DNA of 64,000 nucleotides from Rhodococcoides fascians A25f (GTDB lineage: Bacteria; Actinomycetota; Actinomycetes; Mycobacteriales; Mycobacteriaceae): NCBI RefSeq assembly GCF_000760935.2, contig NZ_CP049744.1:5425501-5489500 (forward strand), given 5' to 3'. A program made the translations under genes and the position numbers. The notes under the pieces were generated by a model. It ran no database searches and had not been told where the DNA came from. It saw only the letters and a program-made list of their open reading frames with translations. Numbering within the stretch: position 1 is the stretch's first letter; every line of letters starts with the position of its first letter. Positions 5,613-24,619 of the stretch are shown one piece after another.

Positions 5613-6692
5613 TCAGTCGACCAAGCGCTCCCCGGTCACCGTGGAGAACAGGTGGGTGCGCTCAGCGGCGTAGGAGAGCGTGATCTTCGATCCGCGTTCC
5701 GGTGGGATGCGGCCGTCGGCGCGGACGACGATGGGCTGACGCGTGCCGTTGATATCGGCCTGGCCGTAGACGTAGGCGTCGGCTCCGAGTTCTTCGACGA
5801 CGTCGATGGTCACTTCGAGGCCTGCCCCGGTGGTGATCTGCAGGTCCTCGGGCCGCACGCCGAGTGTCACGGAACTCTCCCCGATTCCGGCGATGGCGGA
5901 GCGGGGAACCGGAACCACTTCGCCGCCGAAGCGGACGCCGCCGTCGACGAGGGGAAGCTCGAGCAGATTCATTGCAGGCGATCCGATGAAGCCGGCGACG
6001 AACACGTTGTTCGGGTGTTCGTACATGCGCCTGGGCGAGTCGCACTGCTGCAGCACACCGTCTTTGAGGACGGCCACGCGATCGCCCATCGTCATGGCCT
6101 CGACCTGATCGTGGGTGACGTACACGGTCGTCGTGGCGAGTCGACGCTGCAGCGCGGAGATCTGCGCGCGGGTCTGTACCCGGAGTTTGGCGTCGAGGTT
6201 GGACAGCGGCTCGTCCATGAGGAACACCTGTGGCTTGCGAACGATGGCGCGGCCCATGGCCACTCGCTGACGTTGGCCGCCGGAGAGCGCTTTGGGCTTG
6301 CGGTCGAGAAACTTGGTGAGGTCGAGGATCTTGGCAGCGTCCTCGACGCGACGCTTGATCTCGGCCTTGTCCTCGCCGGCGATGCGAAGTCCGAATCCCA
6401 TGTTCTCGCCGACCGTCATGTGTGGGTACAGGGCGTAGTTCTGGAAGACCATCGCGATGTCGCGATCCTTGGGCTGATGGTCGGTGACGTCCTTGCCGCC
6501 GATGGTGATGGCTCCCCTGTCGACTTCTTCGAGACCGGCGAGCATACGCAGCGACGTCGACTTCCCGCAGCCGGACGGGCCGACGAGGACGAGGAATTCA
6601 CCGTCCTGGATGTCGAGATCGAGCTGGTCGACGGCAGCCTTGTCGCCGCCGGGAAACAGTTTGGTGACGCCCTGAAATGCAACGGTGGCCAT
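5613..6692 (-). CDS. Carbohydrate ABC transporter ATP-binding protein (MalK/UgpC/MsmK type)
   Basis: The 359-aa ATPase has Walker A GPSGCGKST (about 38-46), Q-loop VFQNYALYPH, signature LSGGQRQR, Walker B VFLMDEP, switch THDQVEA, and a C-terminal OB-fold/TOBE regulatory region typical of CUT1 sugar importers. ATG 6692 is preferred over ATG 6746 because GAAGGGA lies about 10 nt upstream and the family N-terminus begins here. No permease is adjacent. The ABC operon at 10178-13364 has permeases and a binding protein but no ATPase, so this protein probably energises it, and may serve other CUT1 importers too. It is divergent from uronate dehydrogenase and shares its operator region. Confidence 0.92.
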   Translation of the reverse strand: MATVAFQGVTKLFPGGDKAAVDQLDLDIQDGEFLVLVGPSGCGKSTSLRMLAGLEEVDRGAITIGGKDVTDHQPKDRDIAMVFQNYALYPHMTVGENMGFGLRIAGEDKAEIKRRVEDAAKILDLTKFLDRKPKALSGGQRQRVAMGRAIVRKPQVFLMDEPLSNLDAKLRVQTRAQISALQRRLATTTVYVTHDQVEAMTMGDRVAVLKDGVLQQCDSPRRMYEHPNNVFVAGFIGSPAMNLLELPLVDGGVRFGGEVVPVPRSAIAGIGESSVTLGVRPEDLQITTGAGLEVTIDVVEELGADAYVYGQADINGTRQPIVVRADGRIPPERGSKITLSYAAERTHLFSTVTGERLVD

Positions 6693-6740
6693 GATGGTGG
6701 TCCCTTCACCGGCAGGAACGTGCCGGACGATCCGAGTGGG

Positions 6741-6756
6741 GTTCATATATGTGAAT
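6741..6756. promoter_or_regulatory. Operator-like inverted repeat, GTTC-N8-GAAC family, site 1
   Basis: GTTCATATATGTGAAT lies between the ATPase gene and the uronate dehydrogenase gene. It closely matches GTTCAGATATGTGAAC at 10061-10076 and the pair at 8948-8982. GTTC-N8-GAAC spacing resembles IclR-family operators, and an IclR gene lies at 14602-15399. Confidence 0.6.
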
Positions 6757-6840
6757 GGATGCCAGAATGCTGACTTCGTTTAGAAGTATGTATTACTGTG
6801 ATGCCCATTACAAGGTTTCTATCGAAGGAGTTCGAGAAGA

Positions 6841-22393: not shown

Positions 22394-22424
22394 CTCACCC
22401 CACCTAGTTCTCGAGGAGACCACC

Positions 22425-23351
22425 ATGCTCGACGGAGTCCTGTTCTTCCCCGTCACCCCGTTCACCGCCTCCGGTGAGGTCGATTACGACCTGCTGGCTG
22501 CTCACATCGCGAAGGGTGTCGACGCCGGACCCGGTGGAGTGTTCATCGCCTGCGGCACCGGTGAATTCCATGCTCTCGAAGGCGAGGAGTTCGGCAAGAT
22601 CGTGCGCACGGCAGTCGACGTCGTCGCAGGCCGTGTGCCGGTGTACGCCGGCGCAGGCGGATCCGTCGCCCAGGCAAAGGCGTTCGCGGCGAGCGCGAAG
22701 AGCAACGGAGCCGATGGCATCCTGCTGCTGCCTCCGTACCTGGTGACGATGCCGCAGGCCGGTCTGGTCAACTACACCAAGGCCGTTGCCGCCGCGTCGG
22801 ATCTGCCGTTGATCGTCTACAACCGCGGCAATGCCCGCTTCACCGAGGACTCGGCCGTCGAGGTTGCACAGCTGCCCACCGTCGTCGGATTCAAGGACGG
22901 CACAGGCGATCTCGATCAGGTCAGCCGTATCGTCCGCGCGGTGCTCGATGCACTCGAGCCGTCGGGCAAGCCCTTCCAGTTCTTCAACGGCCTGCCCACC
23001 GCCGAGGTCTCCCAGCAGGCGTACCGAGCGATCGGTGTCACGCTGTACTCCTCTGCGACCTTCGCCTTCGCACCCGAACTGGCGCTGGCGTTCTACCGGT
23101 CACTCGACAGTGGTAACGAGAAGCTCACTGCCGCACTGCTTCGCGAGTTCTTCCACCCGCTGGTGCGCTTGCGCGACAAGGTGCCCGGTTACGCCGTCTC
23201 CCTCATCAAGGCCGGCGTGACGATGGAGGGCATCGAGGCAGGGCCCGTTCGCCCGCCTCTGGTGGACATCAGCGCACCGCACCTCGAGGAACTCACCGCA
23301 ATCGTTGCCGCCGGCCGGGCCGTGCTGGCAGACGAGCTCGCGGTGCACTGA
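22425..23351 (+). CDS. kdgD: 5-Dehydro-4-deoxyglucarate dehydratase
   Basis: The 308-aa member of the dihydrodipicolinate synthase/aldolase superfamily carries the family opening GVLFFPVTPF, the GTGEF loop, IVYNRG and Schiff-base Lys in VGFKDGTGD. It dehydrates and decarboxylates 5-keto-4-deoxyglucarate to 2-ketoglutarate semialdehyde, joining the products of all glucarate/galactarate dehydratases here to the dehydrogenase encoded just upstream. GAGGAG 6 nt before the ATG. Its TGA overlaps the next ATG by one base. Confidence 0.92.
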   Translation: MLDGVLFFPVTPFTASGEVDYDLLAAHIAKGVDAGPGGVFIACGTGEFHALEGEEFGKIVRTAVDVVAGRVPVYAGAGGSVAQAKAFAASAKSNGADGILLLPPYLVTMPQAGLVNYTKAVAAASDLPLIVYNRGNARFTEDSAVEVAQLPTVVGFKDGTGDLDQVSRIVRAVLDALEPSGKPFQFFNGLPTAEVSQQAYRAIGVTLYSSATFAFAPELALAFYRSLDSGNEKLTAALLREFFHPLVRLRDKVPGYAVSLIKAGVTMEGIEAGPVRPPLVDISAPHLEELTAIVAAGRAVLADELAVH

Positions 23352-24619
23352 TGCAGGATCCGGTCCTGATCACCGGCGCTCGAATCACTCCGATCGCCTT
23401 TGTCGACCCTCCTTTGCTCAACACCGTCGGCGTGCATCAGCCCTACGCACTGCGCGCGATCATTCAGCTGGACACCGAGGCCGGCGTCGTCGGCCTCGGT
23501 GAGACCTACGCCGACACCGCTCATCTCGCCCGACTCGATGCGGCAGCTCAGGCCATTACCGGCTTGGACGTATTCGCACTCAACGAGATTCGAGATGCCA
23601 TCGACTCCGTGCTGGGAACACTGTCGATCACCGGCGGTGACGGTGTCGCCGGAATGATCACCACGGCCAGTACCACCGACCGCGTGTTCTCGCCGTTCGA
23701 GATCGCCTGCATGGACGTGCAGGGCAAGGTGCTCGGTCGGCCGGTGTCGGATCTGCTCGGCGGCAAAGTTCGGGACTCGGTTCCGTTCAGCGCGTATCTG
23801 TTCTACAAGTGGGCAGCGCATCCCGGTGCACAGCCGGACGAGTGGGGCGAGGCAATCGACCCGGCCGGTCTGGTGCGACAGGCCCGAAAGATGATCGACG
23901 AGTACGGCTTCGAGGCCATCAAGGTCAAGGGTGGCGTCTTTCCACCCGATGAGGAGATCGCCGGAATCAAGGCGCTCCGGGAGGCGTTCCCGGAGCTGCC
24001 GTTGCGGCTGGACCCCAACGCCGCGTGGACTGTCGACACGTCCATCCGAGTCGCCGCCGAGCTGGACGGCATCGTGGAATACCTCGAAGACCCGACACCC
24101 GGACTCGACGGGATGGCCGAGGTCGCGTGCGAGGCGAAGATGCCTCTGGCGACCAACATGTGCGTCGTCGCGTTCGATCATCTGAAGCCGGCCGTGGTGA
24201 AGGACTCGGTGCAGGTGGTGTTGTCGGATCACCACTACTGGGGTGGCCTGCAGCGCTCGAGGTTGCTCGCAGGTATCTGTGACACTTTCGAGCTCGGACT
24301 GTCGATGCACTCGAACAGCCACCTCGGCATCAGTCTTGCCGCGATGGTTCACCTTGCCGCAGCCACTCCGAACCTGACCTACGCCTGCGATACGCACTGG
24401 CCGTGGAAGCACGAGGACGTCGTCGTTCCAGGAGTGTTGAACTTCGTCGACGGCGCGGTGGCAGTCCCCACCGGTCCCGGCCTGGGCGTCGAGATCGACG
24501 AGGACGCACTCGCGGCGCTGCATCAGCAGTACCTCGACTGCGGTATCCGCGACCGCGACGACACCGGATACATGCAGAGCATCGATTCGAGCTTCGAAAA
24601 CACCTGCCCGCGCTGGTAA
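23351..24619 (+). CDS. Second glucarate dehydratase-type enolase-superfamily enzyme
   Basis: The 422-aa protein has glucarate-dehydratase hallmarks: KxK in AIKVKGGVF, metal ligands in LDPNAAW, LEDP and Asn in ATNMCVV, and His in SMHSNSHLG. It differs clearly from the gudD product at 17729-19075 in N-terminus and capping domain, so its substrate may be glucarate, idarate or another hexarate. It is translationally coupled to kdgD (TGATG) and ends the KGSADH-kdgD operon. Confidence 0.87.
   Translation: MQDPVLITGARITPIAFVDPPLLNTVGVHQPYALRAIIQLDTEAGVVGLGETYADTAHLARLDAAAQAITGLDVFALNEIRDAIDSVLGTLSITGGDGVAGMITTASTTDRVFSPFEIACMDVQGKVLGRPVSDLLGGKVRDSVPFSAYLFYKWAAHPGAQPDEWGEAIDPAGLVRQARKMIDEYGFEAIKVKGGVFPPDEEIAGIKALREAFPELPLRLDPNAAWTVDTSIRVAAELDGIVEYLEDPTPGLDGMAEVACEAKMPLATNMCVVAFDHLKPAVVKDSVQVVLSDHHYWGGLQRSRLLAGICDTFELGLSMHSNSHLGISLAAMVHLAAATPNLTYACDTHWPWKHEDVVVPGVLNFVDGAVAVPTGPGLGVEIDEDALAALHQQYLDCGIRDRDDTGYMQSIDSSFENTCPRW

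Follow-up and report, generated by a model that had tools for sequence, protein, structure and literature searches.

A candidate hexarolactone-processing protein family linked to an oxidative hexuronate and aldarate locus of Rhodococcoides fascians A25f

We analysed a stretch of 64,000 nucleotides from Rhodococcoides fascians A25f (contig NZ_CP049744.1, positions 5,425,501 to 5,489,500; hereafter the window), in which positions 5613-24619 are filled by 16 called genes of the 5.9-Mb genome. Judged by its gene families, this locus is an ordinary, well-stocked member of the known oxidative hexuronate/aldarate catabolic pathway. The pathway is already known; the new content is the family of P2, an orphan protein of about 392 amino acids, and its tie to this pathway. 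We propose that P2 opens or isomerises the hexarolactone formed by uronate dehydrogenase (Udh), a reading to which we assign a probability of about 45%.

The first-pass annotation had described the locus as complete and sufficient for growth on hexuronates and aldarates. The enzyme set of the pathway was indeed recovered, as both Udh and hexarate dehydratases were present by sequence. However, Udh yields an aldarolactone according to excerpts of two papers (PMC4476818, PMC6353982), and neither Gli, Gci nor an SMP-30-type lactonase was recognised in the locus by Pfam, NCBIfam and PDB searches, in which the UxuF family was not checked. Because no known lactone-opening enzyme was recognised, "complete" and "suffices" are too strong. 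In the same excerpts and that of a third paper, aldarolactones are processed by Gli and Gci in Agrobacterium tumefaciens and by lactonases elsewhere (PMC6353982, PMC4476818, PMC9007349), and in Pseudomonas putida the uronate-lactonase gene is numbered next to the Udh gene (PP_1170, PP_1171; PMC9007349). The A. tumefaciens pathway shares with the present locus the step of Udh and, presumably, those of 5-dehydro-4-deoxyglucarate dehydratase (KdgD) and 2-ketoglutarate semialdehyde dehydrogenase (KGSADH) and the final product (PMC6353982), but it uses Gli and Gci, whereas none was recognised here and hexarate dehydratases and P2 stand instead. The proteobacterial variant that combines Udh with a lactonase (UxuL/UxuF; PP_1170/PSPTO_1052) corresponds in Udh and, on the reading proposed here, in a lactone-opening step (PMC6353982, PMC9007349); it differs in that no SMP-30-type gene lies at the present locus and P2 has no PF08450 match.

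At E ≤ 0.001, P2 itself matched no family of Pfam or NCBIfam, and nothing in the PDB matched it better than E 0.32 (sequence) or 1.3 (profile). PF08450 (SMP-30/gluconolactonase) matched neither P2 nor any of 96 family members scanned, and P2 was therefore rejected as an SMP-30 protein. Scanning the paralogues of P2 against Pfam yielded nothing informative. The relatives of P2 amounted to 644 proteins among 8000 candidates scored, and no description of this nameless family was found in the open-licence PubMed Central literature searched by pathway terms.

The assignment relies on gene linkage. In an evenly drawn sample of 394 genomes of the class, our own included, P2 (E ≤ 0.001) was detected in 58 and Udh (E ≤ 1e-50) in 63. 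When our own genome was excluded, P2 at E < 1e-30 was present in 35 genomes, 34 of which carried Udh, compared with 62 of 393 overall. The two genes lay within 7.9 kb of each other in 32 of the 35, always on opposite strands (32/32); in the other three, they were on different contigs (G323) or far apart (G456), or Udh was missing (G362). The hypergeometric p for this co-occurrence was 9e-31 ignoring relatedness and 8e-5 when counted by genus, with Udh in six of the seven P2 genera.

The linkage was also seen in the best 80 of 560 GTDB relatives, a choice by which the counts lean towards close relatives. Genes outside annotated records were called by a codon-score caller, which missed P2 in L195 and L201. 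Among these 80 loci, P2 was called in 78, Udh in 69 (49 on the opposite and 20 on the same strand), a glucarate-dehydratase-type gene in 64 and KdgD in 59. In 58 loci P2 was immediately preceded, on its own strand, by the glucarate-dehydratase-type gene, with a gap of 20 bp or less in 53 of them. Udh was out of reach in nine P2-called loci, including four of Sphaerisporangium with a different neighbourhood. Two loci of a genus labelled g52 (L223 and L224) have a divergent Udh/P2 pair and no KdgD or glucarate dehydratase called within 16-17 kb; L224 additionally carries an IclR gene and a KGSADH-like gene. The suggestion that two unassigned proteins point to a modified route has some merit for P2, which stays beside Udh or a gene of glucarate-dehydratase type in many actinomycetes. 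The second protein, P3, was found in this neighbourhood only in the Rhodococcus-type loci among those compared.

The genome of strain A25f has three matches to SMP-30, the family to which UxuL belongs, all outside the locus. In a search of 60 of the 62 Udh genomes (all except G556 and G561), with an extension to the family of G335 that covered 22 genomes, three Udh genes had an SMP-30 gene no more than 10 kb away (next to Udh in L219 and L220, at about 4 kb in L106), and P2 was never within 10 kb there.

The transporter beside P2 varies: it is an ABC importer similar to that of the window, an SSS transporter in L208, or a TRAP transporter in L144 (by Pfam). This variation fits an enzyme acting on free monomers and speaks against an oligosaccharide-specific glycosidase. 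It bears on the unlikely alternative that P2 is a cytosolic glycoside hydrolase with a glycosyl-hydrolase-like TIM barrel, freeing uronic acids from imported glycosides ahead of Udh. CUT1-type ABC importers often carry oligosaccharides, and one archaeal relative of P2 is annotated as a family 10 glycosylhydrolase. Weak Pfam matches among 96 family members were to GHL10 (18, best E 0.0048), GHL6 (9) and DUF4015 (7), and none of the 96 matched GHL10 at E ≤ 0.001. In profile comparison, GHL10 (PF02638) reached at most 47% probability, with the broad P2 set (77 rows, 8 of them duplicates and 69 distinct); this was the highest of the non-P2 families compared with that set and indicated a possible common fold across about 120 columns. 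The GHL10 alignment kept in one out-of-frame row of its 30 (L247, seven stops). However, the probability was 20% with the actinobacterial set and 4.6% with the archaeal set, the latter being exceeded by the 8.1% of the archaeal set against the KdgD profile. Owing to this fall in separate sets, the TIM barrel is a hint and not an established fold. Furthermore, P2 is kept with SSS and TRAP uptake and in the divergent Udh/P2 pair, and it has a single invariant acidic residue, E170.

This residue, W110 and R258 were invariant in the 77 aligned rows, H43 was present in 76, and Y42, H115 and H183 in 74 each. The conserved H43, H115, H183, K/R185, R258 and E170 may be compatible with an acidic substrate. 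Of four cysteines, at the alignment positions of residues 141, 201, 203 and 206, the full set occurred in 70 rows and none in 7; in a 96-row alignment (A1) they were together in 85 and absent together in 11, and neither alignment had intermediates. The rows lacking them are those of the window protein and its nearest relatives, a pattern suggestive of a structural metal site that the Rhodococcus lineage has lost in one piece.

Still less probable, in our estimate, is that P2 is a non-enolase hexarate dehydratase or a hexarolactone cycloisomerase, which would itself make the 2-keto-3-deoxy acid. Its support came from g52, where all 25 genomes have P2 and a homologue of E4, the second glucarate-dehydratase-like enzyme of the window, was found at 52% identity or higher in 20 (one partial). 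In the other genomes of g52, the E4 homologue reached only 35-37% in three and was not found at E ≤ 1e-40 in two (G325 and G416), which nevertheless retain Udh, KdgD and P2; within the genus it adjoins P2 only in G448. Against this, G325 and G416 carry other enolase-superfamily genes (3 and 7 matches, respectively), and in most of the GTDB loci P2 immediately follows a gene of glucarate-dehydratase type, as described above. A dehydratase activity of P2 would be redundant there, and likewise in the window, where one locus holds four enolase-superfamily enzymes.

P3, the other protein that had been left unassigned, likewise had no hit in Pfam or NCBIfam (E ≤ 0.001). Its AlphaFold2 model is an alpha/beta hydrolase (pLDDT 94.5) with S212 at a strand end before a helix; across 82 aligned rows S212 and D286 did not vary and H320 hardly did, and some relatives carry PF01738 or PF05448 (dienelactone-hydrolase or acetyl-xylan-esterase domains). 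P3 might act as an esterase on substituted uronates, or as a lactonase. If P3 were the lactonase, P2 would be an epimerase, a mutarotase or another enzyme. The confident model, the domains of the relatives and a conserved operator between P2 and P3 favour this arrangement, but among the loci compared P3 occurred in this neighbourhood solely in those of Rhodococcus type, and P2 is far wider. We therefore regard it as rather unlikely, and P3 looks peripheral to the pathway. Most of the probability left by the proposal that P2 acts on a hexarolactone is divided among these three alternatives: P2 as glycosidase, P2 as dehydratase and P3 as lactonase.

More distant relatives of P2 were found in other settings. 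The actinobacterial, paralogous and archaeal groups were homologous by profile comparison (100% probability). P2 relatives occurred in 148 plasmid records, most of them from Rhizobium (112), with haloarchaea second. Eleven of 12 listed haloarchaeal records were viewed (H78 was left out), and 6 of the 11 loci (H46, H48, H60, H72, H79 and H80) combined a nearby MR/MLE enzyme with an oxidoreductase of the SDR or NAD(P)-dependent kind. Of the alphaproteobacterial loci, two were viewed, and in these the P2 relative had an alanine-racemase-like gene and genes of a sugar ABC transporter nearby. In a context of its own, an alanine-racemase/D-threonine-aldolase-like gene lay near the P2 relative in L097, L098, L102, L103, L104, L230 and L231, with RidA usual in the actinomycetes; creatininase-family genes lay near archaeal relatives in 9 of 11 loci (L233, L234, L236-L242); and on two haloarchaeal plasmids (L239 and L240) the P2 relative stood among genes for anhydro-N-acetylmuramic acid kinase, nagZ, GH18 and DUF1343.

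Several points weigh against a hexarolactone role of P2. Lactones also open spontaneously, P2 has no significant remote homology, and P3 could be the lactonase instead. A single genus supplied 24 of the 35 sampled P2 genomes, P2 at E < 1e-30 was missing from 28 of the 62 sampled Udh genomes, and of 33 weaker P2 matches only 3 had Udh at a distance of 8 kb or less (G398, G548 and the second piece of an already counted gene in G474). Three loci (L105, L107 and L109) have Udh, KdgD and glucarate dehydratase with neither P2 nor SMP-30 within 10 kb, and the exclusion between P2 and SMP-30 is suggestive but not significant (Fisher p 0.12). A link to uronates does not extend to the whole superfamily, because paralogues and two of the 11 haloarchaeal loci (H75 and H77, set among amino-sugar genes) stand in D-amino-acid-like or amino-sugar contexts.

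Taken with these points, we propose the following scheme. The uronate module (ABC importer, Udh, P2, P3, E1 and IclR) would take up uronates and oxidise them to hexarolactones, and P2 would convert the lactone to hexarate or isomerise it so that it can open. The hexarates would be dehydrated to a 2-keto-3-deoxy acid by E1, E3 and E4 (glucarate) or E2 (galactarate/talarate), and KdgD and KGSADH would complete the last steps to 2-ketoglutarate. The aldarate module (MFS permease, GudD, 2-hydroxyacid dehydrogenase, E2 and KGSADH-KdgD-E4) would take up aldarates directly. A broader proposal is more tentative: P2 might represent a new enzyme family, spread in actinomycetes with distant rhizobial and haloarchaeal relatives, whose members act on sugar-acid lactones, following a dehydrogenase and preceding a dehydratase of the enolase superfamily, and replace Gli, Gci and SMP-30 lactonases. 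The P2 family is widespread, and 96 members scanned gave no significant Pfam match. Since gene order ties it to a defined pathway in which a single step is unassigned, its function is reduced to a simple assay. If hexarolactones are the substrates of P2, actinobacteria close the pathway with a protein family other than the proteobacterial one, which would bear on the annotation of uronate use and on enzymatic aldaric-acid production.

The genes and putative operators of the locus are listed in Table 1. Family and PDB matches recovered Udh, the glucarate dehydratases, the galactarate/talarate dehydratase and a probable KdgD as first annotated, and two uptake systems were found, an ABC importer for sugars and an MFS permease of ACS type. 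The four enolase-superfamily enzymes (E1 to E4) proved to be of four distinct types; PF13378 has seven matches genome-wide, four of them within the locus. The top PDB matches of Udh were uronate dehydrogenases. E2 exceeded the NF047820 cut-off of 500 bits, E3 scored 826.0 bits against TIGR03247, slightly below its cut-off of 828.7, and E4 scored 748 bits against 3vdg and only 243.7 bits against TIGR03247. E1 scored 465 bits against 4mmw/4hcd/1rvk and 89 bits against 4ggb, which we take to be Gci, and was thus rejected as a Gci orthologue. The PDB entries 4hcd and 4mmw bear the title D-glucarate dehydratase; the search output showed just "Isomerase/lactonizing enzyme". At E ≤ 1e-60, E1 was found in 16 of 61 related genomes (our own included), all in the genus of the window. 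KdgD was above the cut-off of PRK03620 and below that of TIGR03249 (306 versus 374 bits). The KGSADH candidate did not reach the cut-off of any of the 25 NCBIfam rows shown, and its probable substrate is assigned from its operon. The D-2-hydroxyacid dehydrogenase gene between E2 and GudD has no evident step in the pathway; it adjoins GudD in other Rhodococcus-type loci too.

Table 1 Predicted genes and putative operators of the locus, in window coordinates
Feature	Position	Strand	Basis or location
ABC importer ATPase (UgpC/MsmK type)	5613..6746	-	NF008653 474.5 bits, cut-off 432
Putative operator GTTCA-N6-TGAAC, 1 mismatch	6741..6756		between ATPase and Udh genes
Uronate dehydrogenase (Udh)	6841..7668 (start 6841 or 6862)	+	PDB 3rft 180.7 bits
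P2, orphan, candidate hexarolactone-opening/-isomerising enzyme	7752..8930	-	linkage to Udh and glucarate dehydratase
Putative operator GTTCA-N6-TGAAC, 1 mismatch	8967..8982		between P2 and P3; second copy, 2 mismatches, 8948-8963
P3, alpha/beta hydrolase	8975..9991 (start 8975 or 9071)	+	AlphaFold2 model
Putative operator GTTCA-N6-TGAAC, perfect	10061..10076		upstream of ABC permease genes
ABC permease A	10178..11128	+	UgpA-like, below cut-off
ABC permease B	11134..12015	+	GlcU/MalG-like, below cut-off
ABC solute-binding protein	12018..13364	+	PF01547 159.9 bits
E1, enolase superfamily, 1rvk/4hcd/4mmw type	13345..14538 (start 13345 or 13378)	+	PDB match
IclR-family regulator, putative reader of GTTCA-N6-TGAAC	14557..15399	+	PF01614, PF09339
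E2, L-talarate/galactarate dehydratase	15489..16724 (start 16688 or 16724)	-	NF047820 688 bits; PDB 2og9/2pp0
D-2-hydroxyacid dehydrogenase	16761..17714	-	PF02826
E3, classical glucarate dehydratase GudD	17729..19075	-	TIGR03247; nearest PDB 1bqg/1ec7
ACS-type MFS permease	19108..20520	-	TIGR02332 299 bits, TIGR00893 278 bits, both below cut-off
Inverted pair CATGTCCAAGA ... ACTTGGACATG	20573..20703		between MFS and KGSADH genes
Aldehyde dehydrogenase, probable KGSADH	20837..22393 (start 20723 or 20837)	+	1eyy/3v4c type
KdgD, 5-dehydro-4-deoxyglucarate dehydratase	22425..23351	+	NF002958 (PRK03620) 421 bits, cut-off 278
E4, second glucarate-dehydratase-like enzyme (3vdg type)	23351..24619	+	PDB match

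The locus is apparently split into the two modules. Operons for glucarate/galactarate utilisation comprise an MFS permease, GudD, galactarate dehydratase, KdgD and KGSADH, a set that the present locus appears to share, but here they are joined to a uronate module having its own operator. This palindrome, GTTCA-N6-TGAAC, occurs with no more than one mismatch at only one other position of the window (31819). With up to two mismatches, 51 matches were found in the window versus 19.7 expected, many of them intragenic, so that weight rests on conserved positions only. At this tolerance the palindrome was found at the same three places across 16 Rhodococcus-type loci, except that L139 has none between P2 and P3; these loci include the window, and at most 14 are distinct (L075/L135 and L076/L140 are apparently identical records). 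GTTCA-N6-TGAAC was not found in the MFS/KGSADH intergenic region, and a single regulon for the entire cluster was rejected on this ground. The inverted pair there recurs in variants of CATGTCCAAGA or ACTTGGACATG (up to two mismatches) beside KGSADH, GudD or TalrD in 9 of 11 loci, window included; it was not seen in L133 and L134, and variants are also present at unrelated places. As a 14-base pattern with up to three mismatches, it has 15 matches in the window versus 14.4 expected by chance, and the sole two perfect copies stand together. Its role as an operator is suggestive only. From these placements we infer two regulons, one for uronates that the IclR protein would read and another for aldarates, and the earlier division of the transporters, ABC for uronates and MFS for aldarates, is consistent with them for the presumed substrates.

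Outside the locus, TrkA/TrkH-type potassium uptake genes lie at window positions 3447-5481, and a GGDEF protein gene (24669-25616) follows immediately 3' of E4.

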